Assembly (NCBI RefSeq): GCF_037392515.1
Contig: NC_090280.1
Location: 23,441,118-23,505,117 of the forward strand
Length of the DNA stretch: 64,000 nt
Origin: Haliotis asinina
Lineage: Eukaryota; Mollusca; Gastropoda; Lepetellida; Haliotidae
Reading direction: 5' to 3'
The position numbers and the translations under genes were made by a program. Numbering within the stretch: position 1 is the stretch's first letter; each line of letters starts with the position of its first letter. Shown here piece after piece: positions 1 to 63,998 of this stretch. The notes under the pieces were generated by a model. That model searched no databases, was not told the origin of the DNA, and saw only the letters and a program-made list of their open reading frames with translations.

Positions 1-259
1 TTCGTTAATGGATCGGTGGTCCTAAACATATTTGCTCAGTATATTTTGTTGATTCAATTCGTTGGGATTGTACCTGTTCCCAAATCGAGTGTGCTATAAC
101 AATTCATGCGTGAAACGCACGGGGAAAATGAACTTCTCGATATTTACCAGACAACCTGTCTCCCTCTTGTTTCAAGTGGATCGTTCTGTGGGGCGTTCCC
201 AAGTATGCAAATTGGGGTCATTTGTCAGGTCGTGTATCATCTTATATGTGTTTAGCAGT
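1..259. other. sequence unique to the left edge, no gene seen
   Basis: These 259 bases have no counterpart at the matching place in copies B, C and D, whereas everything from about 260 onward does. The break therefore marks either the edge of the duplicated unit or an insertion in copy A. I see no convincing exon or repeat signature here. Confidence 0.5.
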
Positions 260-289
260 AGACGAATCACCACTAGCGACCACAGGTGA

Positions 290-347
290 CTTGAAACGCT
301 TCACAGTACATTATGTCTAGATATAATGTACTGTGAAGAGTTTCAAG
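290..347. repeat. near-perfect palindrome (25-bp arms, 8-nt loop), copy A
   Basis: Arm 290-314 and arm 323-347 are complementary at 24 of 25 positions around the loop GTCTAGAT. The same palindrome recurs at 19318-19375, 37232-37289 and 54578-54635, in the intron between the first 22-nt microexon and the first 56-nt tail exon. B and D carry extra arm mismatches that A and C lack. It could be a hairpin-forming MITE end or simply a fossil inverted repeat. Confidence 0.8.
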
Positions 348-663
348 TCGTGGGTCATCTCAAAATGTTCATATTTAAAACAATCTTTAATCCTCGCAAT
401 GACACAAGTGCCTGTGCTAGAGACCACATTAGTACCTAGATGCCTGTCTCATGGCTAACATCCCTCAGTCTCCTAATAAATGGGAATCAAGTCTCGAATC
501 ATCTACCATTCATTTTATAGAACTAATCGAAAGACTTTCGATTTGATTGATATCGTCAAATTATGGCTTACAAAATGTGGCACGACAGCGGTATACTTCC
601 TGTTGATAACGTCGATCGGTGACTGTTCTTCAGAACCGCAGCTACAGTCTCATTCTAATGGTA

Positions 664-893
664 CTGGATAGAAACCCGTGAAATCCGGGTGAGTCAACCT
701 ATGTCTGTTAGAGGCGACTAACGGGATAGGGTGGACAGGCTCGTTTATTTGGTTAACACATGCCATTGTATCTCAGTTGCAAAGATCGATACTCATGCTG
801 TTCATCACTTGATTGTCTGGTCCATAATATAGATGAAATAGTGTCGTGTGCAACATTAAGAAAAACAAGTAAGCAAACAAAACTAGTGGAGAG
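664..893 (-). repeat. abalone-type interspersed repeat (family 2), reverse orientation, copy A
   Basis: Read in reverse it contains the family-2 core: TTGC...GCAATATT-like start, ATATTATGGACCAGACAATC, CATCGATCTTTGC, and GTTAGTCGCCTCT near its far end. Orthologous copies sit at 19747-19978, 37661-37883 and 55011-55238, so the insertion predates the gene duplications. Confidence 0.7.
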
Positions 894-1284
894 TCGGACT
901 CGCCAGTCTTTATTACTGACAGAGTTCTTCTGTCTGTGTCATGGTATTACATGTTTCCAGACGAATCAGGACTCGATCATCAAGGTCATTGGTCTTTCTT
1001 GGTCTTTACTTCCCCAGTGGTCACTTACGTCCTCACTAGTGGACTAAAACAATTTTGATGAATGTACATGTTAGCACCGAATCAACATGTTTTTCATGTT
1101 TTCTGAAAGTCTGTCTTGCCGGTGTAAAAACATTTCCCGTTATATCACTGTCGTTAGGAAACTACAGTTATGAAATTCCCAGCACGTGTACATGTATGTA
1201 ATAGATTTTGTGAAGCAATTACATTCCAGTGTGTTTGACTGTCTGTTTGGACAAACTTTAACCTTTGTAAAATTCTGTCCTCAG

Positions 1285-4020
1285 CATTGTCACATACACC
1301 CGGGACTCAGGAGAAGACGGGGGCTACCAGGAGATAGAAGGTTGGTGTCATAAGTCATTTCTAACATATTAAATGAAATATGTAATACATCAGAAGACGT
1401 TTCTTCAAAGGTTAAAAGGGTACCCATGAATCATTAAATACTTAATGTATCACTTATGAGTAACAGTTCCTGGTTTTCTTTATTCATTTAAGAAAACTGT
1501 CTGAACATTCTGAACATCTGAACATTCACGACAAATGGTGGTTACTTATTTCAGCGCAATTTCTTGTACACTTGTAATTTCTGAAACGTGTTTAAAGAGT
1601 ACCAAAGTCGCATATCGGCGTGCAGTAATAAAATCATTAAGGGTGGACAATGAACCATCTCTTTGAGTTCATCATTAACCACAGAATATTGTAACTTTCA
1701 GAGACAGGATACGCTGATTATCGGTGAGTTTCAAATGAAATGAATAAACAGTTCCTCGCCTCGAATAGCTGCCAAATTATTGCGACATGTAGCAATACTC
1801 ACTCATTTATTCTCCACAAAACGGTGTGACCTTGAATGACTTCAGAGTGAAACGACACAAAATCCACATCATAATGTAATATTTTGTGTCAGTGACTTTG
1901 TGTGGACCTAATTATCATCACGTTTAATATTCATTTCCTCACATTTTCCTCGTGTTCAATAATCACTTTCATCAGTCTGGTATCGTATCACAGGGAAGGT
2001 GAAAATGACAGCAGCTACCAGGAAATAGAAGGTTGGTGTCTCAAGGTTAACTACGATCATGCTGTGAAAGGACTGTGAACTGTGTCAATTCGGAGCCAAG
2101 AAATGTTGCCATATGAGTCTTATTAATTATTACGATTTTATTATTCATAATTCCTGTTATAAATTAAATCCGATAAAAACATGAAATCCCTTAGTCACAT
2201 TCTTATGTGTTCTGGTGTCATGACGCGTCTATATGACACTTCTTAATTTCCACGAAACGTAACCAGGGTACAGTGATAAAAGATCCACTAGCCTGGATAG
2301 ATGTAACGGTCATGTTTCCGGTCATGCCTCACGGATAATTCTTCCTCCTTCAGTAATTGCTTGCTTCCTTTTCCTTTTATGTGATGCAGACACATGGTTT
2401 ATAAAGAATCGTAGTTTCTTTGACAAGTTGGTCATAGAACAAATACAATTTTGCTTAGTTTTAAAAACTCTTAGTTGGCGATTATTGATGTCAGGAATAT
2501 ATTCAGTGTTTAGTAGGAATGAGGTAATATTTCATACCTCACGAATGATTCTTTTTCCATTGTCCATCTCTCGCTTCAGTAGATGTTTTGTGATGAAGAC
2601 AGGGATCTGTTACTTTGTTATGAATTGCAGTATCTTCGAAAAATATACAAAAAGTATTTCTTCCAAATGTACTACAATCAGTATCTGTGATTTGAAAGTA
2701 ATAAGGAATATTAACGACGGATCTCATATGTGTCCAATACTAAATACATGTGTTATATCAGGAGGTGATGTCAACGTAGACGACATCGTCCCCATCGTAG
2801 CTGTCTACTCCGTTATGCTGACTGCTGTGGCAGTTGTGGTGGCAGCAGTCGCTGTTCTTGTCTGCAAGGACGTGAAAGGTACAAAGAATGCATGCATATT
2901 TTTCATCAAATGAATCAAATGCATTAAGTCATCAGTTCACTCTCCCCCATAAACCAACAAACCTCAAGCAGCACGCCCTTATCCTTTGCCCCAAAGTGAA
3001 TTGGTCTTCAACAACCCACTGGTATGCTCGTCATAACAGGCTAGTAACGCTAGCTGATTTCTTCAACGATTTCAGTATAATTTACCAATCAGTGAAGGGG
3101 TACCCGGTAGGATGAGATGATAATGACTGTAAACCATACACTGTCTTACAATACACCTTGGAGATCCGGGTTAGAACTGATCCTGTGCAACCTATGCTTG
3201 TTACAAATGCAAATGTCTCTTTTATTCGTTGTTGTTTGGATTCAGTAAAGGTCAGTGCAGTAGCCTAAAGTTAAAGCGATCATTCGCCACGCTGAAGACA
3301 CCTAATAATGTGTGAAGCAGTATAGGTAAAGGTGACATGAAACTACACGCAGTCTGTCTGTCCAATCGGTGATATTTTATGAATATTGTCATAAGCAGAG
3401 AAAAAACAATACTCACTCACCTACTCGTGTTCAGTAAGTGGCAATGTAGACGATTAATTCATTTTAAGTGTTCCCTTTGTTTCGTTTTCAGATTACCAGG
3501 GAAGAAGGTACATATATTTACTTTTGTATCTTTAATGTTGGAGTAGTATGGAGTAGAATCTTTTTTTCTTGCCCAGCTGCTGTCTCATGTCTATGTAAAG
3601 ACTATTTGATCGACTTATATCAGAAGACTAACATCATATTTAAAGAAACAACGAAATTTGGTAGACCGATGCTTATGCTGTTGATAATTGGATTGTCTGG
3701 TCCAGACTCCATTATTTACAGACAGCTGCCATATAGCTGAAGTATTACTGAGTGTGGCGTTAAACAACGAACAACAACCATCAGGATCATCTATAGAAAT
3801 ATAAGTGTACTGTTGTAATTACAGATGTGGTGACTACCTTACTGTGATGGCAGAGAGATTATCCCATGACTTCAGTGATGTATCTCGTGCTTCCAACAAC
3901 GATATCTTACCTCTACACGATTACGAGCGACTCCTGAGGGAACAATTCCACATCTACACGTCTCTCCACCCTTCATCTTCCTCAACAGAGGACCACAGTA
4001 CCTGGCGAAACCCAAACTGA
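1285..4020 (+). CDS. IgSF receptor copy A, 3' half (tail exons only)
   Basis: This is the 3' end of a receptor gene whose Ig exons lie left of the window. By alignment with copy C, the exons are 1285-1340 (tail, ...DGGYQEIE), 1702-1723 (22-nt microexon), 1976-2031 (tail, ...DSSYQEIE), 2762-2878 (transmembrane exon 2), 3492-3507 (16-nt microexon) and 3825-4020 (last exon). All have AG acceptors, GT donors and compatible phases (2-1, 1-2, 2-1, 1-1, 1-2, 2-stop). The last exon encodes CGDYLTVMAERL at its start, YERLL and IYTSL further on, and ends WRNPN before TGA. No break is seen in the visible exons. The tail motifs suggest a signalling receptor, but ligand and function are unknown. Copy A shares its C-terminus form and 3' LINE insertion with copy C rather than with B or D. 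Confidence 0.75.
3257..3420 (+). repeat. decayed tRNA-derived SINE in the last-but-one intron, copy A
   Basis: It begins GTGCAGTAGCCTAAAGTTAAAGCGATC, then has the CACGCTGAAGAC and GTGTGAAGC landmarks and an ACTCACTCAC tail. Orthologous relics lie at about 22373-22498, 40334-40545 and 57474-57598. The C relic is the most complete. Confidence 0.6.
3662..3768 (-). repeat. family-2 repeat fragment, reverse, copy A
   Basis: GACCGATGCTTATGCTGTTGAT, then TTGTCTGGTCCAGACTC, CTGCCATATAGCTGAAGTAT and GTGGCGTTAAACAAC. This is the reverse complement of the family-2 core. Orthologues are at 22732-22838, 40788-40888 and 57833-57938. Confidence 0.7.
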
Positions 4021-4262
4021 CGGTACAGGTCCACTTCTACAAGTGTCTTCGCCCTTCCTAGCCCTAAACAGTGGACCACAGTAACAGGTGAAGTCTAAAC
4101 TGACGGTACAGTTCCATATCTGGACATCTCTCCACTCTTCATCTTCCACAACAGAGGACCACAGTACCAAGTGAAACCTAAACCGACGGTACAGTTCCAC
4201 ATCTACACGTCTCTCCACCCTTCACTTCTTCAACAGAGGATCAAAGTATCAGGCGAAGCCTA
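3941..4262 (+). repeat. 83-bp tandem repeat spanning the stop codon, copy A (about 4 units)
   Basis: The unit (AGTTCCACATCTACACGTCT ... CTCAACAGAGGACCACAGTACC ... AAACTGACGGT) starts inside the last coding exon, where it encodes FHIYTSLHPSSSSTEDHST, and continues into the 3' UTR. Unit numbers are about 4 in A, 3 in B, 4 in C and 2 in D. Confidence 0.8.
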
Positions 4263-4510
4263 TATAGTTCAACATCTGCAAATTCTTACAATTTCAGCTG
4301 GAAAAATAAGAGTACTGCAATAGGTGTGAACAGGAAATATTTTCCACAATGTCCTCTTTTACAGAGGACTGTACTGATATCGACAGTTATGAGATATGTT
4401 CCTGCTTGCCCTCTACATACCCGGCGAATGCAGTCACCGAACAGTATGTCCTTTCAGCGAGCGGACGCTGGTAACGAAAAGCTTTGAGCTTTACTCACAG
4501 TACATATAGT

Positions 4511-4536
4511 ATATCAACAACACTGATTTGGCAACA
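4511..4536 (+). repeat. left target-site duplication of the LINE insertion, copy A
   Basis: This 26-bp sequence (ATATCAACAACACTGATTTG...) recurs at 5600-5625, right after the LINE's microsatellite tail, with 24 of 26 positions matching. Such a repeat is expected from target-primed reverse transcription. Confidence 0.8.
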
Positions 4537-5599
4537 GATTATGTTTTTCACCACAATGGCCCATGAGAAATGTCTTGGCAAATATTAAAACTGAAATTAT
4601 AAATCTAGGTATCAGTAAAGCTGTTTCCACAAATGCCATTCTTGGTCAGACAGGCAGACACCCGCTTTGTGTTAAATATTATACTCGCTGTATCAAGCAC
4701 CGGTGTCGACTATTATACATGGAACATACAGGATATCGAAAAGCCTGTTATGAGATGCTCAAGATATACGACAAAAATGGGATAATAAATTGGGTGTCAC
4801 AAGTTAGATTATTACTTTGGTACACTGGTTTCTCATATGTATGGGTCGCCCAGGATTGTGGTCACGCTGGCATATTTATTAAGCAGTTTCAACAACGTTG
4901 TGAAGATATCCAGTTTCAAGATTGACATTCTAAGATTAGTAATTCTCACTTTTTGGGTCCTGAGAAATACATAGCCGCACCTGCTGACAGACACGATTTG
5001 AGAAGAATCCTATGTAAGTTTCGTTGTCTTTTAAATAAGTTAAATACTCAACAGTATAGGTTTGATAAAACTGTTGAGAAAAGAATGTTATTATGCACTA
5101 AGTACCAATTGCAGCAAATCGAGGATGAGTACCATTTTTTCCTTATTTGTCCTTATTATTCTGGAAGCCGCAAGAAAACTATTCCATCATATTATCATGC
5201 TAATCCATCACGTGCTAAATATTATCAGTTACTGGCATTAACTCATTATGAAAACATACTGGCTTTAAGTATCTATTTGAAACGAAACTTACCAATTTGA
5301 GTATACTGGCAGTACCCAACCCTCCGCTCTCCCTCCCTACACTGCTGTGCACTATTTCTTTTGAATATTTAATGTACTTTAGGCCATGTGGCCTTCATAC
5401 TGAAATAAATTGTCATTGTCATTGTCATTGTCATTGTCATTGTCATTGTCACTGTCATTGTCATTGTCATTGTCATTGTCATTGTCACTGTCATTGTCAT
5501 TGTCATTGTCATTGTCATTGTCACTGTCATTGTCATTGTCATTGTCATTGTCATTGTCACTGTCATTGTCATTGTCATTGTCATTGTCATTGTCATTGT
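4537..5599 (+). mobile_element. 5'-truncated LINE (ORF2 C-terminus and 3' UTR), copy A
   Basis: The reading frame matches the C-terminal part of non-LTR retrotransposon ORF2, past the RT core. It holds RRILCKFRCLLNKLN followed by a cysteine/histidine knuckle region (LLCTK...IEDEYHFFLICPYY). It is related to the longer open copy at 41705-42634 and, relative to it, has an internal stop (TGA at 4923) and a deletion of about 30 codons' neighbourhood near 4950. The 3' UTR has the hairpin-like GGCCATGTGGCC and ends in (TGTCAT)n, as in CR1/L2-like elements. The clade assignment is tentative. Confidence 0.8.
5411..5599 (+). repeat. (TGTCAT)n LINE tail with 36-bp higher-order period
   Basis: About 31 hexamers. 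Every sixth unit is TGTCAC instead of TGTCAT (at 5447, 5483, 5519 and 5555), so a 36-bp block has been amplified as a unit. The equivalent tail in copy C (about 42567-42593) has only four to five hexamers. Confidence 0.95.
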
Positions 5600-5637
5600 A
5601 TATCAACAACACTTATATGGCAACATTTTTTTCAGTC

Positions 5638-5643
5638 AATAAA
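5638..5643 (+). promoter_or_regulatory. candidate poly(A) signal AATAAA, copy A
   Basis: AATAAA in the conserved context TTTCAGTCAATAAA.CTTTAACC, which is present downstream of the last exon in all four copies (23580, 42630 and 58599). In A and C the LINE insertion lies between the stop codon and this signal. Confidence 0.45.
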
Positions 5644-6948: not shown

Positions 6949-7029
6949 CCTCAGACAGACTGGATATTTTGGAGATTACCAGTGAGCAGAATTACCATTT
7001 TGTACATCTGGGTATTCGCGCATGTACGT

Positions 7030-7525
7030 CACAGAAACAAACAGCACATATATATCTCGGTACTCATACATATACGTCACTGATGTGATCTGTACATACA
7101 CCGCGGTATTAACACATATACATCCCTAAACAATCTGTACATACACCTCGGTATTCACACATATACATCACAAAACAATCTGTACATACATCTTCATATA
7201 CTCACATATATGTCACAGATATGATCTGTACATACACCGCGGTATTCACACATATACATCTCTAAACAATCTGTACATACACCTCGGTATTCACACATAT
7301 ACATCACAAAACAATCTGTACATACATCTTCATATACTCACATATATGTCACAGATATGATCTGTAAATACACCTCGGTATTCACACATATACATCACAA
7401 AACAATCTGTACATACATCTTCATATACTCACATATATGTCACAAAACAATCTGTAAATACACCGCGATATTCACACATATACATCACAAAACAATCTGT
7501 ACATACACCTCGGTATTCACATTCG
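7030..7525 (+). repeat. 45-bp minisatellite, A-B intergenic (about 11 units)
   Basis: The unit reads roughly CTGTACATACACCTCGGTAT + TCACACATATACATCACAAA + ACAAT. As 45 is a multiple of three, part of it stays open with a 15-residue period (...FTHIHHKTICTYT...), which I regard as incidental. A shorter array is at 25030-25345. The arrays are missing from the units that follow C and D. Confidence 0.85.
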
Positions 7526-12105: not shown

Positions 12106-12169
12106 ATGTTTTTTCATTTGTTTTGTCTGAAAACTGTGATCTTCTTTGGAGGCATACTGGAATTTGCTG
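12106..12169 (+). CDS. signal-peptide exon, copy B
   Basis: ATG opens a 21-codon exon (MFFHLFCLKTVIFF... ending LEFA plus one base) that stops at the donor GTAAGC in phase 1, matching the phase of the Ig1 acceptor. A short hydrophobic core after a lysine fits a signal peptide. The same exon with three substitutions starts copy C at 30167. It is missing from copy D. Confidence 0.7.
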
Positions 12170-13168: not shown

Positions 13169-16100
13169 CACTGACTCACTGACTCACTCACTCACTCACT
13201 CACTCATTCACTCACTCACTCACTCACTCACTCACTCGTCCCTAGCATGGTGATCAACGTTCAGATGCTGGTGATACCTAGTGATTATTTCCATGATAGC
13301 GTACCAGTAACTTACGAGTTGTGATATTTGTACTGTACTTTGATGGCAGCGCTTACGTTCTAAATGTATTGATTTTAATATAGATATAAATTAAATTGTT
13401 CTCGTCACGATATTGATGGAATATTGCCGATCGCGACGTGACGCTTAGTTTCAAACCAAGCACTCACGCACTCACGCACTCACGCACTCACGCACTCACG
13501 CACCCGATGACCCGAGAAGTGGTAGAGAAGAGTAGACAGTCTTACAAAATATCGCAACATTTGTGTCTTTCATCTTCCTCACCGCCATCTACCACCGCCG
13601 ATACTGCTCGACATGTGCATAGTATGTGCTGTTGACCGACCAAACAGCATGAAATCAGACACCAAAGTATTTGTTCCTATGTTGAGAAGTCTGCACCGAC
13701 GAGGATGACGACGTGTAGCATGGAGCAACACCGTGCAGGTATGGAGAAAATGGCGGTGAGTCTGGAGCAATGATGATTCGTGAATTCTCCCTCAATGCTG
13801 AAACTGATGGTAGGCTGTCGTCTGACGTCAAGTGAAGGTATTCAGCACTTTCCGACAGGTCGACAGGTTTGGTGTCGAACGTGTGATAGTGTGGGGAATC
13901 ATATCCTACTTGGGAAGATGTACGTGATGGCGGTTCAGGGAACTGGTGCAGGGACCAAATTCTTCAACGTCAGCTTCTTCAACTGAAAGAGAAAGTTCAA
14001 CATGACATGGCGGTGCCGCATACACAGCCCGTGTCATTGTTGTCTCGCTTCAAACGTCAGTGCCTTGCCCTGACCCTCCAGATCTTAGGATCTGAATCAG
14101 ATACAACATCTTAATGTTTGCATCGTAGTCAAAATACGGCACGTTTACAATGCATTGTAGGAAGAATGGCAGAGAAATCCACATAACATAGTACAGAGAA
14201 GTGATGATCGACAGCTCACTGAACGGGCGTCTTATGACAATGTCACCACGATATCATCTTTGTATCAGTTAAATTGGATCAAATATGCAATTACGTGTAT
14301 TTATTTTTCAAAGTTGGTCTTTATGTTTCTTTTCTGTATCGTGTACTAATTATGCTGATATGTTTCAGCTTCTTATACCAACACTGTGGCCCGTGTCGGG
14401 CAAAGTGTCAACATGACCTGGAGTGTCAGTCAGTCAGTTACGGATTTTAAGATAAGATCTATCACATACAAACAACAGAAACCCAACAGAACTAATTCCA
14501 CTGTCCTGTTCATTATGGATGACAATAAGCCTCTGCCTGCAAGTGTCAACACACACACAGACAACGGGACGAGGATTCAGCTGACTTTCAATACATCTCT
14601 GGAGGGGAGGAAGCTAGTCAATCTCACATTCCACAGTGTTGACGTACAGGACGCCGGAGTCTACAACTTAACCACCCATAACAGTGGCATGTCTCAACTT
14701 CTTATTGTATTACGTAAGTGTGAAGACACTCTGAGTACCAAAGATAAATATACAGTGTAAATATAAATATAAATATAAAATCAGCATCAAAAGCTAGTTT
14801 TTGAGACACATTGATAGAAATATGGCGGTCACAGGCAGATAATCTGCGAAATAGTTATCCATACTTATCATAGTTTTATCATTATAGCATTATAGTTTAA
14901 TGTCGTTTACACAAATGTCATTGCAAGAACTAATTACGATAGCGATGAACATCACCATAAAGCTTCATCCTGTAACAGAATCCAGATGAAATATATTGTA
15001 TATATTATATTCTTATATTTTGTTATCGTTGAAGGGTAAACTATGACACTGACCAATCATCTTCGATGGCACTTTCATAATGTTTTATAACACCTGACCT
15101 TCCTCTCTCCTTACAGATGTTTTGTAACACCTGACTTTCCTCTCTCACTACAGACGTTTTATAACACCTGACCTTCCTCTCTCACTACAGACGTTTTATA
15201 ACACCTGACCTTTCTTTCTCCCAACAGACGTTTTATAACATCTGACCCTCCTTTCTCCCAAAAGACGTTTTATAACACCTCACTTTCCTTTCTCCCTACA
15301 TGCGTTTTACTACACCTGACCTTCCTCTCTCCCTACAGACCTTATATAACACCTGACTTTCCTCTCTCCCTACAGACGTTTTATAACATCTGACCTTCCT
15401 TTCCCCCTACAGACGTTTCAAAACATCTGACCTTCCTTTCCCCCTACAGACGTTTTATAACACCTGACCCTCCTTTTTCCCAAAAGACGTTTCATAACAC
15501 CTGACCTTCCTCTCTCCCTACAGACGTTTTGTAACACCTGACCTTCCTTTCTCCCTACAGACGTTTTATAACACCTGACCTTCCTCTCTCCCTACAGACG
15601 TTTTATGAACAGTATCACGGACGTGGTCAGGGATTCTGCCTCACTGCATTCACTATCCATCTGTTATTGCTTCCTTGGGAATGGATAGAACATTTGACGT
15701 TCACTAAGATCAATTCAAATAAACTTTCTGTTCAAACGACATTTTGGCGTATGACGGTGACTTAATGTCACTGAATCTATAGTACATATTCATATATGTT
15801 ATTAATAATTAAAAAGAATAAGGACAAGATTACAACCATTTCCATTCAACTTTTCACAGGGAAACCATCAAAACCGAACATCACCACGGCTGTCGCTGAC
15901 CCTGTATCCGGTGATCCTGTCAACCTGACCTGCTCCACAACCTCCCGGAGTCTTCCTCCAAACCAGTGTCGGTACCAGTATACTCTGACTACTTCCTACA
16001 CCTGGAGGAGAAACAACAGGAGTGTAGACAGCAGGGTAGACAACAGAGTGCAGGTGGACGGACAATGCCTGACCATAGACTACGTCACCAAGGAGGACAA

Positions 16101-47751: not shown

Positions 47752-47850
47752 ATGGGTGTGGGGTAGCCTTGTGGGTAAAGCCTTCCATGTGGGTTCGATT
47801 CCCAACATGGGAACAATGTGTGAAGCCAATTTCAAATGTTCTCATCTGCT
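47752..47850 (+). repeat. truncated tRNA-derived SINE, upstream of copy D
   Basis: GGGGTAGCCTTGTGGGTAAAGCC, GTGGGTTCGATTCCC and GTGTGAAGCCAATTTC, then the 3' half is missing. Confidence 0.8.
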
Positions 47851-48560: not shown

Positions 48561-49149
48561 TGATCGACAGCTCACTGAGCGGGCATCTTACGACAGGGCA
48601 ATTAGCCTTGCCATTATGAGAATACCACCATAATGTCATCTCTGTATCAATCAAACTGGATCAAATATGCAATTACGCGCATTTGTTTTTCAAAGTTGGC
48701 CTTTATGTTTCTGTTCTGTATCGTGTACTAATTATGCTGACATGTTTCAGCTTCTTATACCAACACTGTGGCCCGTGTCGGACAAAGTGTCAACATGACC
48801 TGGAGTGTCAGTCAGTCAGTTACGGATTTTAAGATAAGATCTATCGCATACAAACAACAGAAATCCAACAGAACTGGTTCCACTGTCCTGTTCATTGTGG
48901 ATGAAAATAAGCTTCTGCCTACAAGTGTCAACACACACACAGAGAACGGGACGAGGATTCAGCTGACTGTCAGTACATCTATGGAGGGGAGGAAGCTAGT
49001 CAGTCTCACATTCCACAGTGTTGACGTACAGGACGCCGGAGTCTACAACTTCAGCGCTCCTAACAGTGACGTGTGTCCTGAGACTCAACTTCTTATTAAG
49101 TGTGATTACAATCTGAGTACCAAATATAAACATAAATTCAGCATCAAAA

Positions 49150-51310
49150 GCGTGTGTTTTTGAGACACATTGATAGAAATATGGCGGTCACAGGCAGATA
49201 ATCTGCGAAATAATCATCCATACATACAAAGGAAGTTTTATCATTTTAGCATTATAGTTTAATGTCGTTTACACAGATGCCATTGCAAGAACTAATTACG
49301 TTAGCAATGAAGCTATAAAGCTTCATCCTGTAAAAGAATCCAGATGAAATATATCTTATTACTGTTGAAGGGTAAACTATGACAGTGACCCATCTTCTTC
49401 CATGGCACTTCCATGAAGGTTTTTGCCTGTGTTTTATAACACTTGACCTACCTCTCTCCCTACAGACGTTTTATAACACCTGACCTTCCTCTCTCCCTGC
49501 GGACGTTTCATTACACATGACATTCCTCTCTCCCTACAGATGTTGTATATCACCTGACCTTCCTCTCTCTCTACACACGTTTTATAACAACTGACCATCC
49601 TTTCTCCGTGTAGAAGTTTTATGGACAGTACCACGGATGTGGTCAGCCATTCTGCCTCACTACATTCATTATGCATCTGTACATACGTTATTGCTTCCTT
49701 GGGAATGGATAGAACATATGTCGGGAATGACGTTCACTCAGATCAATTCAAATAAACTTTCTGTTCAAACGACATTCTGGCATATGGTGACTTAATGTCA
49801 CTGAATCTATAGTACATATTCATATATGTTATTAATAATTAATAAGACTAAAGGCAAGATTACAACCATTTCCATTCATCTTTTCACAGAGAAACCATCA
49901 GAACCGAACATCATCACGACAGTTGCTGACCCTGTATCTGGTGATCCTGTCAACCTGACCTGCTCCACCACCTCCCGGAGTCTTCCTACAGACCAGTCTC
50001 TGTACCCGTATACTCTGAACACGTCCTACACCTGGAGGAGAAACAACAGGAGTGTAGACAGCAGGGTAGACAACAGAGTGCACGTGCACTGACAATTCCT
50101 GACCGTAGACCCCGTCACCAAGGAGGACAAGGGAGTGTACGCTTGTCAATCTGGAGAAGAAGGACTACTGTCAGACTGGAGTCGGGGATACACTCTCAAT
50201 GTTTTATGTGAGTTCAGGTTGATTAATATTGAAACAAAAAGCTAGTTTTTGAGACATTGATAGAAAAATGGCGGTCACAGGCAGATAATCTGCAAAATAA
50301 TCATCCATACTTACAAAGGAAGTTTTATCATTATAGTTTAATGTCGTTTACACAGACGTCATTGCAAGAACTAATTACGGTAGCGATGAACACCACCATA
50401 AAGCTTCATCCTGTAACAGAATCCAGATGAAATATATCTTATTACTGTTGAAGGGTAAACTATGACACTGGCCAATCTTCTTCCATGGCACTTTCATGAA
50501 GATTGTGTTTTATGACATCTAACCTTCCTTTCTCCTTACAGACGTTTTATAACACCTGACTTTCCCCTCTCACTACAGACGTTTTATAACACCTGACCTT
50601 CTCTCCGTGCAGGCGTTTTATATCACCTGACCTTCCTCTCTCCGTGCAGACGCTTTATAACACCTAACCATCCTTTCTACGTGTAGACGTTTTATGGACA
50701 GTATCACGGTTGTGGTCAGCGATTCTGCCTCACTACATTCATTATCCATCTACAGACACGTTATTGCTTCCTTGGACATGGATTGAACATTTGTCGGGAA
50801 TGACGTTCACTAAGATCAATTCAAATAAACTTTCCGTTCAAACGACATTCTGGCTTATGGTGACTGAATGTCACTGAATCTATAGTACATATTTATTTAT
50901 GCTACTCATAATTAATAAAAATAAGAATAACGGCAAGATTAGAACCACTTCCATTCAACTTTTCACAGAGAAACCATCAGAACCGAACATCATCACGACA
51001 GTTCCTGACCCTGTATCCGGTGATCCTGTCAACCTGACCTGCTCCACAACCTCCCGGAGTCTTCCTCCAAACCAGTCCCTGTACCCGTATACTCTGACTA
51101 CTTCCTACACCTGGAGGAGAAACAACAGCAGTGTAGACAGCAGGGTAGACAACAGAGTGCACGTGGACGGACAATTCCTGACCATAGACTACGTCACCAA
51201 GGAGGACAAGGGAGTGTACTCCTGTCAATCTGGAGAAGAAGGACTACTGTCAGACTGGAGTCGGGGATACACACTCAATGTTTTATGTAGGTTCAGTTTG
51301 AGTAATAAAC
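49150..51310 (+). repeat. 1.08-kb direct tandem duplication containing Ig2, copy D
   Basis: The segment from the GTTTTTGAGACACATTGATAG motif through the minisatellite and Ig2 occurs twice, offset 1079 bp (Ig2 acceptors at 49890 and 50969). The first Ig2 has a stop and the second is open. Confidence 0.9.
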
Positions 51311-52285
51311 AATAACTAGAAGCTAGATGTTTCTTCATATACAATCCTCAGAAAATATGATTCTGCTCTACATGTTCTCACTATCAACATTTGATGCCTA
51401 AACTTCAAGTGAATATGCAGCTTGCCCACTCAGTAATAACTCAGAAACTACAAACTTCCTGAAACGGATGTTTTATGGAAAGACCCGAGCTATGATGTCC
51501 CGATCCGATTCATCATCACGCCGTGTCCTCTGTTGCAATTGCTCAGCCATTCTGCAAGTATACGCATAAATAGAGATTATCACTCTCGCGTCTACTGATA
51601 TCAATTATATAAACACGATTTGATAGAGTTACAAAGGCTTTCCCAGGATGTCTTTATTTTTATCAACGTGTGTGATATCAGTAGACACGAGGCTGGGATT
51701 GTAGTTATAATCAAATATCATTCTTCAATCTTGAATCCCTTTGGAAGACGGCCACGCTAGATATATGGTGGCATGGGTATGATAGAAGACAATTTCAAAT
51801 TATTATTTCTGACCATCTCACATGCACTCCAGATGGACCTGACCAGATACAGTTTGACGGCACAAGGGACAAGCTGCAGATAGAAGAAGGGAAACCCGTA
51901 ACAATGAGATGTTCTGCTGACTGTAACCCTGCCTGTACTGTAACCTGGTGGAACACACCCAGAATGATGGTGATTACAGGACATAGGGAGGCTGTGTTGT
52001 CCATACCAGCTGTAGATGTGTCTGTGTCTGGAGAGTACACATGTCACGTCAACAACAGCCATGGCAGTGCATCACGGAACCTTACACTGGAGATCCTCAG
52101 TAAGACTTGCACACATTCTTTAGTAACAGAATATGTCACATTTAAAGTTGTATTTGGACAAAACCTGTAATGACACTATTCAAAATCAGTAAACATTTCA
52201 ACTCGTAGTATTCATTAAGAATTCAATTTTGACCATAATGCAATAGAAATAATACGCTATGGTTCAATTATCAGCTACAGTTATA

Positions 52286-52458
52286 GGGGCGGTGGGGTAG
52301 CCTAGTGCTTTAAGCGTTCACTCGTCACGCTGAAAACCTTGGTTCGAATCTCCACGTGGGTACAATATAGGAAGCCCATTTCTGGTGGATCCCTCTGTGA
52401 TGTTGCCAGAATATTGTTTAAAGCGGTGTAAAACAAAAAGAAGTCAGACAGTCAGTCC
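52286..52458 (+). repeat. tRNA-derived SINE, Ig3-TM1 intron of copy D
   Basis: Orthologue of 17200-17362. Confidence 0.85.
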
Positions 52459-53064
52459 AACAATCTCAAATGTTTCTGCTTGCCCTATAAACTGAAAATA
52501 TGCCATAAAGGATAACATGATATGCAAAGTGACAAAAGGAAATATTATTATAGATGTCGTTTGGAAGTGCCACCGTATACCCTTTGTAATATTACGTATT
52601 GTGGAATACTGAGAGACATCCAAAGAAAGAAAGTGCCATGCACACGTACAGAAAGTGGATACGATATTGCCGATATAGTAGATCAGGTATTGCATAGTTG
52701 CATTCAAAACAGGATTAGACACATATTAAACTGCATGGTACATATTAAATGTTTCAGCACGTGAGCTTAATGAATCTGGTGTCGTTTCCATGGTCCCCGT
52801 GGCTGCTGTCTGTTTGGTCCTGATCGTGGTCATCGCCGTTGTCGTCATAGTGCTTGTTTGTAGAAAACACAGACTCGGGGGTAATACGGTGTGATGTGAG
52901 AGTGAATGAAAACGTATTCCACGGCGGTATTTTAGAATCCTGCGTTCATGTTTGTCTGTACGTGGTATTATTAAATTTATGCTATGCCATGATCCGGCTT
53001 GATCTTATAACCATGGAATGTATACGTTCAAAAGCACTTCTTTTGCACTTCCAAGTGCAAGTAG

Positions 53065-53220: not shown

Positions 53221-54059
53221 GCTGAAAATACTTTAAGGTGTGTTGGGATTATTTCCTGCATATGTTATTTCCTGGAATCTCAAAAGCACGGTGTTCAGGC
53301 ATAACCGGGAAATAGTTGGATAAAACATTTTAGTAACAAATCCAACCGGAATAGCTACAAAAATGAAGGAAGAAGAAAGTACAACTGAAACGTAGTGTTC
53401 TTTTATATAGTACATACATTATACCACTTTTGGTCAGGTGGTGAATATAGTTTTATCCTGATAACTGATATATTCACCCATACAAAAGTTTATTTTTTTA
53501 CTTTGACTATAGCATAATAAACTCAGCACTACATAAATGTCTACATTTACAAGCTTCACATCATACTCACATACTACCATCTTCTTCTTTGATTTAAATC
53601 AATGGATTTATGTCACAGCAGATTAGTCTATTTTTTTATGTTCGATTTTGATTGAGTTTAAACACGCCGTTGGTGGTAACAAGAAAGGAAGAAAGTCGCC
53701 TCTTTGTGGAGAAAAGGAACCTGAGTCCAGCCTTTAACGCAGTGTTTATACCCTTTAAGAGACACGATTATTGAGTGACATAAACTCATCCGAGAAGTCA
53801 TGTGAAATAACAGCCACCTGTGTTGTACTTGACATTTTGTTCCCTTTCTTGACCTAACAATTAAAGAGTCTTGTACTGTTCTGCAAAATTAAATTTGGTA
53901 TTTGTGATTCACATGTGTGCAGCTACACCAATAATTTGTTGATCGTATATTTGTCATCTAACATTTTGCACGTGTAATTGTCTACTCCCTTTCAGGGAGG
54001 GGATACATTCTTAATCGGTGAGTATAATGGCTTTGAACTTTCTAACACAGCCTTAATTG

Positions 54060-54420
54060 ATAATATACCACAGATCAGGCTGCTGGTGGCTGGGAATAAA
54101 TACGTACCCTTGTAAGCTAAAATCTTGAAACTCATCACCATCATCACTATATCAAACCTTTGTGGGGACAGTGAAGACTGAGTTTTTATCTCTGTTGACG
54201 TTGTTGTATGCACAAGTGTATTAATCCATTACCACCACAGATCAGGGTGTTGGTGGCTGGGAATAAATACGTAAACTTGTCAGGTAAAATCTTGAGACTT
54301 ATCACCAATGTGTGTCCATTTGTGAGAGCTATTTGTCCCTTATACTATATGATACCTTTGTGGGGACAGTACAGACTGAGTTTTCATCTCTATTGACGTT
54401 TGTGGATGCACAAGTCTATT
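54060..54420 (+). repeat. about 168-bp tandem duplication downstream of microexon 1, copy D
   Basis: CAGATCAGG.TG.TGGTGGCTGGGAATAAATACGTA occurs at about 54070 and again at about 54238. B and C have one copy. Confidence 0.8.
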
Positions 54421-55010
54421 AATCCAGTACCACCAATCTTGTCTACACACACAAACGTGAACATCAACATGGACTTGAAGTATGGTTCCCATCAGTGCGT
54501 CACCGACTGGGTTGTGACGCATTTCTCAAATCATTGTTGTGGTTACTAGACGAACCACAACTAGCGACCACAGGTGACTTCAAACGCTTCACACTACATT
54601 ATGTCTAGATATAATGTACTGTGAAGAGTTTCAAGTTGGGGGTCATCTCAAAATTTTCATATTTAAAAAAATCTTTAATCCTCGCAATGACACGAGTGCC
54701 TGAGCTAGAGACCACATTAGTACCTAGATGCCTGTCTCATGGCTTGCATCCCGCAGTCTCCTTATAATGGGAATCAAGCCTCGAATCCTCTGCCATTCAT
54801 TTAGTAGAACTACGTCAATTCCTCCAGAAGGATCTCCAGTTCAAATTTGAAATAACAAATAATCGAAAGACTTTCGATTTGGTTCATATCGTCAAATGAT
54901 GGCTTCCAAAATGTGGCACGACAACGGTATACTTTCTGTTGATAACGTCGATCGGTGACTGTTCTTCAAAAGCACAGGTACAGTCTCATTCTAATGGTTC
55001 TGGATAGGAA

Positions 55011-55238
55011 CCAGTGAAATCCGGGTGAGTCAACCAATGTTTGTTGGAGGCGACTAACGGGATCGGGTGGACAGGCTTGCTTATTTATCGATACATGCCA
55101 TTGTATCTCAGTTGCATAGATCGATGCTCATACTGTTCACCACTTCATTGTCTGGTCCAGACTCGATAATATACATCCCGCCACCATATGGATGAAATAT
55201 TGCTGAGTGCAACAGTAAGAAAAATAAGTAAGCAAACA
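55011..55238 (-). repeat. family-2 repeat, reverse, copy D
   Basis: Orthologue of 664-893, nearly identical to the copy B element. Confidence 0.75.
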
Positions 55239-58120
55239 AAACTAGTGGAGAGTCGGACTCGCCAATCTTCATTGCTGACAGAGTTCTTCTGTCTGTGTCA
55301 TGGTATTACATGTTTCCAGACGAATCAGGACTCGATCATCAAGGCCATTGGTCTTTCCTGGTTTTTACTTCCCCAGTGGTCACTTACTTCCTCACTAGGC
55401 GACTAAAACAATTTTGGTGAATGTACAAGTTAGCACCGAGTCAATAATTTGTCATCGTGGATTTTCTAAATGTCTGTCTTGCCGGTGTAAAAACATTTCC
55501 AGTTATATCACTTTCGTTAGGAAACTACAATTATGAAATTCCCAGCACGTGTACATGTATGTAATAGATTTTGTGAAGCAATTACGTTCCAGTGTGTTTG
55601 ACTGTCTGTTTGGACAAATTTTAGCCTTTGTAAAATTCCGTCCTCAGCGTTGTCACATATACCCGGGACTCAGGAGCAGACGGGGGCTACCAGCAGATAG
55701 AGGGTTGGTGTCATAAGTCATTTCTAACATATTATATGAAATATGTAATGCATCAGAAGACCTTTCTTCAAAGGTTAAAAGGGTACCCATGAATCATTAA
55801 ATACTTAATGTATCACGTATGAGTAACTGTTCCTGTTTGTCTTTATTCATTCTGAACATTTGAAAATTCACGACAAATGGTGGTTACTTATTTCAGTGCA
55901 GTTTCTTGTACACTTGTAATTTCTGAAACGTGTTTAAAGAGTACCAAAGTCGCATATCGGCATGCAGTAATAAAATCATTAAGGGTTTACAATGAACCAT
56001 CTTTTGAGTTCATCATTAACGACAGAATATTGTAACTTTCAGAGGCAGGATACGCTCATTATCGGTGAGTTTCAGATGAAATGAATAAACAGTTCATCGC
56101 CTCGAATAGCTGCCAAATTAATGCAGCATGAAGCAATACTCACTCATTTATTCTCCACAAAGCGGTGTGACCTTGAACGACTTCAGAGTGAAACTATACA
56201 AAATCCACATCATAATGTAATACTTTGTGTCAGTGACTTTGTGTGGACCTGGTGTCTCAAGGTTAACTACGAGTATGCTTAAGGACTGTGTGAACTGTGT
56301 CAATTCGTAGCCAAGAAATGTTGCCATACAAGTCTTATTATTTATAACAATTTTATTATTCATGATTCCTGTTATAAATTAAGTCAGATAAAAACATGAA
56401 ATCCCTCGGTCATATTCTTATGTGTTCTAATGTCATGACACTTTTTAATGACACTTCTTAATTTCCACGAAACATAACCAGGGTTCATTGATAACAGATC
56501 CACTAGCCTGGATAGATGTAACGGTCATGTTTCCGGTCATGCCTCACGGATAATTCTTCCTTCTTCGTTAATTGCTTGCTTCCTTTTCCTGTTATGAGAT
56601 GTAGACAGGACTCTCTTAGCTTATAAAGAATCGTGGTTTCTTTGACAAGTTGGTCATAGAACAAATACCATTTTCTTAGTTTTAAAAACTGTTAGTTGGC
56701 CATTATTGATGTCCGAAATATATTCAGTGTTTAGTACGAACAAGGTAATATTTTACACCTCACGGATGATTCTGTTTCCATTGTGCATCTCTCGCTTCAA
56801 TAGATGTGTTGTGATTAAGACAGGGATCTGTTAGTTTGTTATGAATTGTAGTATCTTTGAACAAATAGTTACAAAAAGAATTTCTTCCAAATGTACTGCA
56901 ATCAGTATCTATGATTTTAAAGTAATAATGAATATTAACGACGGATCTCATATGTGTCCAATACTAAGTACATGTGTTATATCAGGAGGTGATGTCAACG
57001 TAGACGACATCGTCCCCATCGTAGCTGTCTACTCCGTTATGCTGACTGCTGTGGCAGTTGTGGTGGCAGCAGTCACTGTTCTTGTCTGCAAGGACGTGAA
57101 AGGTACAGTGAATGTATGAATCCTTTCCATCAAATGAATCAAATGCATTGAGTCATCAGTTCACTCCCCTCCACAAACCAACACACCTCAAGCAGCACGC
57201 CCTTACCCCAAAGTGAATTGGTCTTCAACAACCCACTGGTATTCTCGTCATAACAGGTCAGTAACGCTAGCTGATTTCTTCAGCGATTTCAGTATAATTT
57301 ACCAATCAGTGAAGGGGTACCCGGTAGGATGAGATGATAATGACTGTAAACCATATACTGTCTTACAATACACCTTGGAGATTTGGGTCAGAATTGATCC
57401 TGTGCAACCTATGCTTGTCACAAATGCAAATGTCTCTTTTATTCGTTGTTGTTTGGATTCAGTAAAGGTCAGTACAGTAGCCTAATGGTTTAACAATCGT
57501 TCGTGAAGCCCATTTCAGCCTCTCACCCTGGCGTTCCAATCCGTTATATTTTATGAATATTGTCATAAACAGAGAAAAACAATACTCACTCACTCACTCC
57601 TGTTCAGTAAGTGGTAATGTAGACGATTAATTCATTTTCAGTCTTCCCTTCGTTTTCAGAGGACCAGGGCAGAAGGTACATATATTTACGTTTGTATCTT
57701 TAATGCTGGAGTAGTATGGAGTAGAATCTTTATATATTTGCCCAGTTGCTGTCTCATGTCTATGTAAAGACTATTTATTCGACTTATATCAGAAGCCTAA
57801 GGTCAGATTCAAACAAACAAATCAATTGCGTAGACCGATGCTTGTGCTGTTGATCATTGGATTGTCTGGTCCACACTCGATTAATTACAGACAGCTGCCA
57901 TATAGCTGAAATATTGCTGAATGTGGTGTTAAATAACGAACAACCGAACAGCAACCATCAGGATCATCTATAGAAATATAAGTGTAATGTTGTAATTACA
58001 GATGTGGTGACTACCTTACTGTGATGGCAGAGAGATTATCCCATGACTTCAGTGATGTACCTCGTGCTTCCAACAACGATGTCTTACTTCTACATGATTA
58101 CGAGAGAGTCCTGGGGGAAC

Positions 58121-58262
58121 AGTTCCACATCTACACGTCTCTCCACCCCTCATCTTCCTCAACAGAGGACCACAGTACCAAATGAAGCCTAAACTGAGGG
58201 AAGAGTTCCACATCTACACGTCTCTCTACCCTTCACTTCTTCAACAGAGGATCAAAGCCTAT
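58121..58262 (+). repeat. 83-bp repeat across the stop codon, copy D (2 units)
   Basis: Shortest array of the four; the stop position is as in copy B. Confidence 0.75.
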
Positions 58263-58598
58263 ATAGTTCAACATCTACAAATTCTTCCAATTTCAGCTGG
58301 AAAAATAAGAGTACTCCAGTGAAAGTGAACAGAAAATGTTTTCCACGATGCCCTATTTTACAGAGAACTGTAGTGATATATCGACAGTTATGAGATATGT
58401 TCCTGCTTGTCCTCTACATACCCGGCGAACGTTGATGTTTGTACAACGCCATGATGTATGCAGTTACCGAACAGTATTTTCTTTCAGGAAGCGGACGCAT
58501 GAAAGGAAAAGCTCTGAGCTTTACTCAAAGTATATATGGTATATCAACAACCCTTTACTCACAGTATATATAGTATATCAACAATATTTATTTCAGTC

Positions 58599-58604
58599 AA
58601 TAAA
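58599..58604 (+). promoter_or_regulatory. candidate poly(A) signal, copy D
   Basis: AATAAA in the conserved context, about 415 bp after the stop. Confidence 0.4.
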
Positions 58605-60919: not shown

Positions 60920-61260
60920 CACTCAGTTTTAGGTTCTTGTATCTCTACAGTCCATGTGTCTGTAATAGTGTCTCCCGTCCTTCTGTGCTGTAGCGACATT
61001 CATCCTAATCCTGGGCAGAATTATTCAGACCCTTTGAAATAATACATATTGGAAGACAAACTGTATTTCCCTGTCACAGAATTTTGACTTCTGACTTTAA
61101 ATGTCTTACAGAAACAAGGCTGCACGCAGACATCCCCAGTGTTGATGTAGCAATACCTGCACACTACCTACCATTCGGGAAATATATGCAAACTCGTGGT
61201 GGTGATTTGGCGATCTAATAGTATGTCAGCAGGGTTTACTCCTTCCCCGACCACCTTTTT
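60920..61260 (+). mobile_element. LINE endonuclease fragment downstream of copy D
   Basis: Diverged orthologue of 8395-8880. The ACATTCATCCTAATCCTGGGCAG segment (HPNPGQ) and the CCTGCACACTACCTACCATTCGG segment are recognisable. Confidence 0.6.
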
Positions 61261-62489
61261 AATATACGCTGTGGCAGTGTTATAACAACATATCAACCTA
61301 TCTGGAAACACCAGTTCCTGAGAGACGCAATCAAGGTATTGCGGAACAGAATTTCTTCCATGGTGGAGAAAATCCTTCAGGGTTAGGAAATTTACTGTTT
61401 ACGTCTCAATACCTCTTCCTTGATGGACACAGCTTGCCGTAGTTCTGCAGATGAAGGATGGTTGCCGTTCTTATTTAAGTCCTTCATCCATAGTCGCTCG
61501 GCAGTCTTTGACACAGCATCTCCAGTAGTCTACTATTCTTTCTGTTCTTAATCCTAAACTTACAGCTGCCGTATATCAGGTTTTGTCCACCACGTGCGTA
61601 GCTACAATAATATAGAAGCTCACAGATATGCTGTATTTTTTAAATGTGCCAAAAGAGGTGAGACTCTAACAAATAATTGTCTGTCCAGAGTAAAAATTGC
61701 CCGGACTTACAATTGATTGTTACTAAAAAAAGGCTGTACAAGCCTTCAATACTATCTAAAAATGAAGTTTTGTAACCTATCGGGCTAACACCAAAAAGAA
61801 ATGGCTTGCAACACGTCTGTCCACCTTGTGGATTTATGACGTACAGGACGCCTACTTGAGCATTAGCCATGATGGTGAATGATGACCTGGGGGATCGTTT
61901 TATCATTCATATTCATGGCTGTGACATTTGTTAGTGTTCACAGAGAGAAAAGAGAGAAAATTTGTATTTATGTGTCACATGTTATAAATACATAAAATAT
62001 ACATACATAATTTAAAGCACTGACAAAATATAACATCCGGCCATATGGCCTACGAGACACAAGACACTACAGAACGTATAGTAGTGCTTGAAGTGAATAA
62101 TCTATCACAGCATATAAGCACCATTAATGAAAGAAAACGTTATAGTGAATAATGTATCGCCAGTCCCATGTTCACCAGTAAAGGGTTGTATGTGTAGGTA
62201 CAGGACTACAATATGCGTTTACGTCTATTAAACATTTCAGTAACCATTGCAGCTATTTATCTTAGCATTGCTAAGTATGAATGCGTCGTGGTCGGTAGGT
62301 GACAGGAGAGGGGAAAAGGATTAGTGTTTAGTACATTTTCCCATAAGTCATATCGTAAGTCCGAATATAACGGACATTTGTTCTGAAATGTGCTCACCAG
62401 ACATACCTTGAAACAGACTATGTAACTAATACCCCTTTTGTTCTACGGATGACTGCATTTTAATGTTTTAAGAAATTTGGGCATAGTGG

Positions 62490-62850
62490 GGATACACCGT
62501 CAAAAGTATCGGTGTCAGGCATATGCCAGATCATTTCTACCTGATGCAATACAACTGTGGAATTCCCTAAATTCATTTAATAGTATTTATACTTTATCCC
62601 AATTAAAAAACTCGATATTAAAACCAAATAACTCCCTATGTTTGACCTAAACTAGGGAGTAAGAAGCCTCAGGTTCCGTTGTAGTGATCTGGATGCTGAT
62701 AGGTTTGATAGACACATCGTCGACAGTACCTCGTGCTCATGTTGTCATCCAGTCAAAATGTCGTGCATTATTTCTTCACATACAATAAATACACGGAAAT
62801 AAGACGAAAATCGTATTTTCAATTAAAGACGTTTAATATCAACTTGGCAC
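62490..62850 (+). mobile_element. LINE ORF2 C-terminal relic downstream of copy D
   Basis: Diverged orthologue of 9903-10340. Confidence 0.55.
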
Positions 62851-62949
62851 TATGGAGATGTGCATCCCTCACAAGCACCAATGTACATGTGTATGCCATG
62901 TGTATGAACCAAGAGAATCAAAATACTTGCCAACTCATTAAAACTATTA

Positions 62950-63125
62950 TATTGTTGTATGGTTTCTCCATGTACTGTATCGTTATAATCATGCGTTGTA
63001 AACTCAACCATCTGTATACAATGCTTTGTATACATGTGTAAATGTATGTACATTTTGTATATGTATGTTATACGGGCCTGTGGCCTATAGACGATAACAA
63101 ACTTGACTTGAAACTAAAATATTTC
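62950..63125 (+). mobile_element. LINE 3' end downstream of copy D
   Basis: TATACGGGCCTGTGGCCTAT forms a short GGCC hairpin and is followed by AACTTGACTTGA. This looks like the 3' end of a non-LTR element with a CTTGA-repeat tail, and it is absent from the other units. Confidence 0.5.
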
Positions 63126-63998
63126 ATCTTTAATTACCTTAATTGTTTGATCTTTGTTAGATATATCAAAGAGCCCGACCTATTCAGTTACTGTATTCAT
63201 AAGAAACAACTCGTATTCAGTAAGGCCTAAACTCAGCCTACTTTTTATGTCATCACGACGCTAACGCTACACTAAACGCCGTCTTTGACGTCAGTACGTA
63301 TACCGGTTGTGACTTCCGTTCGCTTGGAGCACTGCTTGGCATCTCCTGGACATAGACAGAATAAGTGTTAAGATCCCAGCCCTGGGTATTCTAGGTCATT
63401 CATTATGCAATGCTTGTCGTAGTTGTTGAAGCGTCTGGGGTCGTGGAAGACGTTGTCGGAGCCGTCGATCGAGCTAATCCCAAAGGTGATCGATTGGGTT
63501 TTAATGCGTGGATTTAATAGGCCATGGAAGCACTGGTTTCTGGTTGGCGAAGAAGTTCATTGTTTTCTGAACTGATTTAGTCGACAATAATAAATGAACT
63601 TCTCTTGACATAGCAAGGCGTAGTCAGTTAGAACATACATGATGGCGATTCAACATTGGTGCTAACCACACCAATTATTTGACCGGCATTCGAAACGCTG
63701 AGGAATCAATAACGAACCAAATTAGATTGTACCCTTGGTTTGAACGAAGCCTATGCAGGTGATCCCAGAGTTCCTTTGTCAGAAGTCGACCCAGACATCA
63801 CCTAGGTGAGTGGTACAATGGGCCCGGGTCTATCAACCGGTTGGTCATACAAGGTTCTGTGCTATTACGATATGTTACACAAAAATGATAACGAATGACA
63901 ACAGGAATTTTTCAGCATTGACCAAATGATTTGTATCTAGGAATGTCAAAAGCATAATATCAGTTTTAATATTTGCCAAGACGGTGTGGCTCATGGGC
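63126..63998. other. counterpart of the upstream flank of copies B and C, no gene
   Basis: Matches about 10900-11430 and 28740-29500. In B and C the signal-peptide exon lies about 0.7 kb beyond the point matching the right edge here, so a fifth copy would begin just outside the window. Confidence 0.6.

Follow-up and report, generated by a model that had tools for sequence, protein, structure and literature searches.

Tandem type I immunoglobulin-superfamily receptor genes, intact and decaying, in a 64-kb stretch of the Haliotis asinina genome

We analysed a receptor gene locus of Haliotis asinina. The 64,000-nucleotide stretch in question (the window; NCBI RefSeq assembly GCF_037392515.1, contig NC_090280.1, positions 23,441,118 to 23,505,117 of the forward strand) carries a tandem family of type I receptor genes of the immunoglobulin (Ig) superfamily with intact and decaying members, a conclusion that is well supported. 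Spliced Ig receptor genes mark the source organism as an animal, and the family belongs to a known kind. What the DNA itself shows is the exon anatomy, the damage and the mosaic structure of the copies. Beyond this, we consider it probable that the genes encode paralogous receptors with a fast-changing V-set first domain (Ig1), cysteine-bearing second and third domains (Ig2 and Ig3), a membrane helix and a tyrosine-rich tail, in which Ig1 would serve recognition, the tail would signal, two transmembrane (TM) exons would be used alternatively and exchange between copies would drive turnover. The locus most likely contains an expanding receptor family that serves recognition, signals through tyrosines and works like the CEACAM, oyster IgIT and Botryllus FcoR genes, and an immune or allorecognition setting would be the likeliest.

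When the window is compared with itself, neighbouring units show long direct matches offset by 15.3-19.1 kb, and units farther apart show them at about 34-37 and 52-54 kb. Unit-to-unit identity is mostly 83-98%, non-coding parts included. Coding and non-coding parts thus repeat together and, therefore, whole genes were duplicated with their flanks. Three consecutive units lie on the plus strand: B (signal exon at 12106, poly(A) signal at 23580), C (30167 to 42630) and D (Ig1 at 48751, poly(A) signal at 58599). A fourth, unit A, is present as its 3' part only (1285-5643); its Ig exons and TM1 would fall to the left of the window. Right of D, the upstream flank of the unit restarts and runs to the window end, so that a fifth copy may lie just beyond. 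A previous reading of the sequence alone had described four head-to-tail copies, each with signal, three Ig, one TM and tail exons. B, C and D do have a common exon order and common phases, while A contributes t2, t3, t4, TM2, t5 and t6; the full pattern is complete in B and C and nowhere else in the window, and each unit has two membrane exons (TM1 and TM2) rather than one. AATAAA occurs in matching sequence context in all four units. Of the 74 splice sites counted for exons present in A-D, 73 retain their dinucleotides, a count that omits D's lost t4 and its extra first Ig2.

The twelve exons of unit C join in frame through canonical donors and acceptors in the order signal, Ig1, Ig2, Ig3, TM1, t1-t4, TM2, t5 and t6. 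This join measures 1,593 nt, or 1,476 nt without TM2, which replaces the 1,611 nt given previously. The Ig exons, TM1 and TM2 are in phase 1 at both ends; a shift to phase 2 is introduced by t1 and t3 (22 bp each) and by t5 (16 bp), after which the following exon restores the phase or ends phase 2. The exon set of C was recovered in full in B, with the exception of the signal exon and t4 in D, and as the 3' set in A. The grading of damage made in the sequence-only reading holds: all exons of C are open, B has a single stop within its twelve exons (in Ig3), and D is heavily damaged, with no signal exon found at 45200-50236, the Ig1 donor and t4 lost, and a stop in the first of its two Ig2 exons. 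The features are as follows.

1285-5643, plus strand: unit A, 3' part, with t2 (1285-1340), t3 (1702-1723), t4 (1994-2031), TM2 (2762-2878), t5 (3492-3507), t6 (3825-4020) and AATAAA (5638)
12106-12169, plus strand: unit B, candidate signal-peptide exon, MFFHLFCLKTVIFFGGILEFA, phase 1 donor
14369-14713, plus strand: unit B, Ig1 exon, V-set, cysteine-free
15082-15611, plus strand: unit B, intronic 37-bp tandem repeat between Ig1 and Ig2; a branch-like motif, a pyrimidine tract and YAG occur together at 11 sites
15860-16177, plus strand: unit B, Ig2 exon
16743-17009, plus strand: unit B, Ig3 exon, in-frame stop at 16889-16891
17668-17787, plus strand: unit B, TM1 exon
18903-21138, plus strand: unit B, tail exons t1 (18903-18924), t2 (20413-20468), t3 (20809-20830) and t4 (21101-21138)
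21877-21993, plus strand: unit B, TM2 exon
22558-23585, plus strand: unit B, 3' end, with t5 (22558-22573), t6 (22900 to the stop at 23081-23083) and AATAAA (23580)
30167-30230, plus strand: unit C, candidate signal-peptide exon, MFFHIFCLKTVIFSAGILEFA
32793-33146, plus strand: unit C, Ig1 exon, V-set, cysteine-free
33480-33673, plus strand: unit C, intronic 37-bp repeat between Ig1 and Ig2
33927-34244, plus strand: unit C, Ig2 exon
34795-35061, plus strand: unit C, Ig3 exon, I-set/Ig_3
35696-35818, plus strand: unit C, TM1 exon
36785-39085, plus strand: unit C, tail cassettes t1 (36785-36806), t2 (38325-38380, YQQI), t3 (38742-38763) and t4 (39048-39085, YQEI)
39824-39940, plus strand: unit C, TM2 exon, the second membrane exon, in the phase of TM1
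40616-41147, plus strand: unit C, 3' end, with t5 (40616-40631) and the last exon t6 (40952-41147, YERL-x7-YTSL, stop ending at 41147)
42630-42635, plus strand: unit C, AATAAA
45188-46960, plus strand: unit D, decayed MULE-like transposase region, replacing C 27469-30445, signal exon included
48751-49097, plus strand: unit D, Ig1, donor deleted
49431-49622 and 50507-50695: unit D, 37-bp repeat
49890-50207, plus strand: unit D, first Ig2 exon, C-like, stop at 50090-50092
50237-51315, plus strand: unit D, second partial Ig1-Ig2 intron and Ig2 exon (50969-51286), junction near 50236
51833-52880, plus strand: unit D, Ig3 (51833-52099) and TM1 (52758-52880)
53996-56064, plus strand: unit D, tail exons t1 (53996-54017), t2 (55648-55703) and t3 (56043-56064); t4 lost at 56250
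56986-58604, plus strand: unit D, 3' end, with TM2 (56986-57102), t5 (57660-57675), t6 (58002 to the stop at 58183-58185) and AATAAA (58599)

Signal exons were sought as an ATG, a hydrophobic stretch and a phase-1 donor. A strict scan returned one row in the whole window and a looser one 19 (four in B, seven in C, four in D and four at the right end). The B-C pair was picked from these 19 candidates for its hydropathy, the score of its donor and its corresponding location in the two units, and may act as the signal exon. Another candidate, which recurs at equivalent positions of the three units B, C and D (14352, 32776 and 48734), was rejected as it overlaps Ig1 in another frame. We also discarded an exon within the open reading frame (ORF) 35343-35645, between Ig3 and TM1, which has no Pfam match and, judged by eye, runs into a stop when read in phase 1.

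In the C join without TM2, the Pfam families V-set, Ig_3 and I-set exceed their curated cut-offs; V-set matches best at Ig1 and Ig_3/I-set at Ig3, each with a second stretch above cut-off. Ig1 of B and C is devoid of cysteine, and Ig2 and Ig3 have the usual cysteine pair. The N domain of CEACAM proteins lacks a disulfide. Among the best 60 of 217 PDB matches to the ectodomain, the closest solved proteins are CEA, DSCAM, CEACAM1 and CD22. The best of them is CEA (E 1.1e-28), whose repeated domains add to the score; Ig2 alone also matched CEA (1.4e-11), and an Ig1-only profile found nothing significant in PDB (best E 0.11). A gene of the gastropod FREP/VIgL (fibrinogen-lectin) type was rejected, as fibrinogen, C-type lectin and galectin domains are all absent from the C join in Pfam. 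A search for relatives in viral contigs gave 35 pattern matches, none of them confirmed. Since those 60 structures also include contactin, Dpr-interacting proteins and Robo besides DSCAM, the genes might instead encode cell adhesion or nervous-system receptors whose tails signal contact rather than non-self. We regard this as unlikely, although it is the strongest of the rivals, because tandem copies with pseudogenes, diversification of Ig1 and shuffled copies are, from general knowledge, unusual in such receptors.

TM1 and TM2, both strongly hydrophobic, flank the cassettes t1-t4. The best 19-residue hydropathy is 3.7 for TM1 (B and C) and 2.8 (A) and 3.1 (C) for TM2; TM1 is open in all three units for which the window covers it, and TM2 in all four. 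Both exons encode an acidic N flank and a basic C flank, which fits an outside-to-inside course for both helices, so that one chain should use only one of them. The alignment of one to the other scores 61, with shuffles averaging 46.6, and the two may be related. Being in phase 1 at both ends, either can receive Ig3 in frame, and t5 can be joined in frame from t4, TM1 or TM2. The simplest reading is that TM1 and TM2 would be used alternatively, deciding whether YQQI and YQEI are present in the tail. The full C tail has five YxxI/L/V motifs and one pair, YERL-x7-YTSL, with the spacing of an immunoreceptor tyrosine-based activation motif (ITAM), a pair also found in A. DGGYQQI (t2) and DGSYQEI (t4) resemble hemITAM motifs and ligands of the Src homology 2 (SH2) domain of Src. 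With 14-15 of 22 bases matching between t1 and t3, the pairs t1-t2 and t3-t4 seem to stem from a duplication. An 83-bp tandem repeat starts inside the coding end of t6 (3934-4262, 23015-23232, 41069-41351 and 58116 onward); its frame is lost through the later copies because the unit is not a multiple of three.

The way in which the copies diverged speaks for a coding history. Between B and C, 1,502 exon bases are free of frameshifting indels where introns predict 8.7 (P 1.6e-4), and between C and D one was found in 1,469, against 10.5 expected; the intron set leaves out the repeat-bearing Ig1-Ig2 intron. The single frameshifting indel involving D is the deletion at its Ig1 donor. This deficit indicates that much of the divergence probably arose in working genes, and a coding history is supported by the B-C comparison. 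Across B, C and D, none of the 36 splice bases compared is substituted, against 3.8 expected (P 0.023). Change between B and C is below the intron rate in TM1 (4 of 120 bases, P 0.023) and in t1-t5 (6 of 154, P 0.021). Excluding codons with stops or gaps, here and in all substitution counts, the ratio of nonsynonymous to synonymous rates (dN/dS) over the whole join is 0.88 (B-C), 0.97 (B-D) and 0.76 (C-D). For Ig1 taken by itself, dN/dS, which the sequence-only reading proposed to compare between Ig exons, is 1.35 (B-C), 3.04 (B-D) and 3.34 (C-D); in Ig2 and Ig3 the nonsynonymous to synonymous counts (N:S) do not depart from expectation. Ig1 has accumulated 28 nonsynonymous and 3 synonymous changes (uncorrected P 0.046, 0.022 and 0.010 at rate ratios of 1, 2 and 4). 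Relative to introns, Ig1 changes above the rate in B-D (P 0.004) and below it in C-D (P 0.0001), values that are not used, as exon-intron comparisons for these pairs are rough because intron means hide local differences between mosaic tracts.

Fourteen of the 24 variable ungapped columns of Ig1 fall within the 19 columns of the C'-C'' and F-G segments, which were picked after looking and whose strand labels come from a low-confidence model and general V-set knowledge. The fair test is therefore a two-window scan, in which 52 of 5,000 permutations were as clustered, and none of 2,000 when gap columns were counted; clustering is absent in Ig2 (329/3,000) and Ig3 (920/3,000). On the reading that we prefer, Ig1 would use its C'-C'' and F-G regions to bind a variable ligand, and binding would lead to phosphorylation of the YxxI/L motifs (YQQI, YQEI and, in A and C, YERL-x7-YTSL), which would then recruit SH2 proteins. 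Choice of TM1 would admit the YQxI cassettes to the tail and choice of TM2 would omit them. Unequal exchange and gene conversion would create new copies, overwrite old ones and yield pseudogenes such as D.

Several results weigh against this reading. The signal exon is the least sure part of the gene model, and the Ig1 structure model, built from three sequences, was unusable (mean predicted local distance difference test score, pLDDT, 48.7). The Ig1 excess concerns one of six exon classes and would fail strict correction. The other five classes show no departure in N:S, with counts close to neutral (Ig2 18:8, Ig3 15:6, TM2 6:4 and t6 20:10), and weak constraint or decay is possible there. Between B and D, one frameshifting indel in 1,457 bases stands against 2.4 expected, which is not significant. 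Alternative use of the TM exons is suggested by exon phase and charge only, and the TM1-TM2 alignment score was matched by 2.6% of 2,000 shuffles. B and D carry YERV and lack the ITAM-spaced pair, which arises by shuffling in 5.8% of cases for the full C tail, 1.2% for the tail of the TM2 path and 1.0% for A's t6. The pattern (S/I/V/L/T)xYxx(L/I/V) of the immunoreceptor tyrosine-based inhibition motif (ITIM) had no match in five tail sequences. Together with the broken state of B and D, the near-neutral counts outside Ig1 would suit an array whose function has been lost here, C being open by chance or youth. We find this account improbable in view of the missing B-C frameshifts, the 73 intact splice sites and the open TM2 and t6 in all four units.

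The units are also mosaics of one another. Up to about 50.2 kb, D is 91.5-95.5% identical to C and 83.5-93.2% to B; from about 51.5 to 59.4 kb it is closer to B (95.2-99.5%), bar one lower window at 53876 (92.5%) and two, at 55476 and 55876, that are about as close to A and C as to B. Near 50236, D jumps from behind Ig2 back into the Ig1-Ig2 intron, which results in a second Ig2 exon and thus four Ig exons. Over 25.4-29.2 kb, the sequence downstream of B shows 94-99% identity to the corresponding flank of A, while C's is mostly unalignable there; the first two B-versus-A rows (100%), which derive from ranges that overlap, were disregarded. Downstream of t6, A and C have in common a retroelement-like fragment that is absent in B and D. 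On either side of it stand 25-base copies of a single sequence, with 2 differences each as judged by eye, which resemble a target-site duplication. Its ORF (41684-42634 and 4527-5438, in the presumed 3' untranslated regions of C and A, with a hexamer tail) has no Pfam match, and we take it to be akin to a non-LTR (long terminal repeat) retroelement. In D, the MULE-like region is decayed and spread over several frames, with a Pfam match below cut-off (25.6 versus 27.6 bits) and no inverted repeats of at least 15 bp at 45000-47150.

This patchwork of tracts speaks for unequal exchange or conversion and against a simple doubling of haplotypes. False copies produced by collapsed or doubled haplotypes could account for the 95-99.5% identity of B and D over about 8 kb and for the odd junction near 50236. 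Such an artefact is very improbable given the intron divergence of B-C (8.7%) and C-D (9.1%; B-D 3.2%), the retroelement held by A and C only, and a D unit resembling C at one end and B at the other. Least probable of all are gamete recognition receptors changing fast by sexual selection, a reading that fits the fast change of Ig1 as well as immunity does but has no positive evidence, tyrosine signalling tails being atypical of such proteins as far as general knowledge goes.

The 37-bp repeat between Ig1 and Ig2 has 14.3 copies in B, 5.2 in C and 5.2 at each of its two places in D. Its consensus combines a branch-like CTGAC, a pyrimidine tract and CAG, and resembles a complete 3' splice site. 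YAGA sites number 11 in B, 5 in C, and 3 and 4 in D, with a branch-like motif ahead of 11, 3, 1 and 4 of them, respectively; these sites average a pyrimidine share of 0.80-0.87, compared with 0.62 for 39 gene-exon acceptors. If Ig1 were spliced to the array, 13 of the 16 sites of B and C would lead to a stop after 3 residues; for the remaining three, the stop would come after 30-42 residues. The repeat may be an ordinary minisatellite. A tentative and rather doubtful idea is a splice-controlled switch, in which TM choice would set the YQxI cassettes and decoy 3' splice sites would divert some transcripts to a stop soon after Ig1, giving soluble Ig1 or less receptor at a level set by array length (11 sites in B, 5 in C).

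The comparisons with known systems draw on excerpts of the cited papers. The analogy with allorecognition clusters drawn in the sequence-only reading is fair as a likeness, and as a likeness only, in clustered paralogues, mosaic copies, tail tyrosine motifs and Ig1 diversification; the Hydractinia Alr complex is compared in the same sense (PMC11999971, PMC12065747). The statement that no such abalone cluster is known agrees with the titles and abstract starts of the openly licensed papers retrieved for abalone and Haliotis, which describe none and are weak evidence of absence, and the excerpts of the Aplysia immunome (PMC9334734) contain nothing on such a cluster. There is, however, a mollusc precedent: in the pearl oyster, genes for membrane proteins with Ig domains are clustered in regions that vary from one haplotype to another (PMC9646362), which makes the array setting less unusual than previously held. 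Unlike in the C join, fibronectin III domains are often present there (PMC9646362). Oyster CgIgIT2, compared by description, is a mollusc Ig receptor with a membrane helix and a tyrosine-based motif, called an ITAM (PMC11999971), and an inhibitory receptor according to the title of reference 93 in that paper; it differs by its five Ig domains, and a tandem array is not described in the excerpt.

CEACAM genes are clustered, include pseudogenes, encode a V-like N domain followed by further Ig domains and ITIM/ITAM-like tails, and undergo gene conversion and recombination between paralogues (PMC2832619). The C join, with a V-set domain first and other Ig domains after it, is alike in domain order only, and its two TM exons per gene and YQxI cassettes are without counterpart in the excerpted account (PMC2832619). 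Botryllus FcoR proteins also begin with a V-type Ig domain and have ITIM, hemITAM or core YxxI/L/V tails, with tail motifs swapped by alternative splicing at some loci, but they contain a sushi domain and belong to a tunicate; fuhc-tm has three Ig domains and a TM segment in about 535 residues (PMC12065747). Exon 17 of Drosophila Dscam1 offers two mutually exclusive TM exons within one Ig-superfamily gene, yet Dscam1 is one gene only, encoding ten Ig and six fibronectin repeats (PMC3364881), and in our array the alternation would be a prediction from exon structure.

Regarding other genes between the units, 17 of the 104 ORFs of the window were searched in Pfam and gave no match above curated cut-off; below it were MULE, DUF4787, Pol_alpha_B_N and DUF4227. 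The unit contains a tRNA-like repeat. Scans for transfer RNAs and Rfam families had no matches. Tandem repeats of 45, 91 and 136 bp lie between units at 7003-7521 and 25013-25351 and differ in length.

If expressed, these genes would likely add a mollusc to the animal lineages that use clustered Ig receptors with tyrosine tails for recognition. The locus would then be a compact place to read receptor gain, loss, exchange and tail choice, with the two membrane exons as a testable splice switch.

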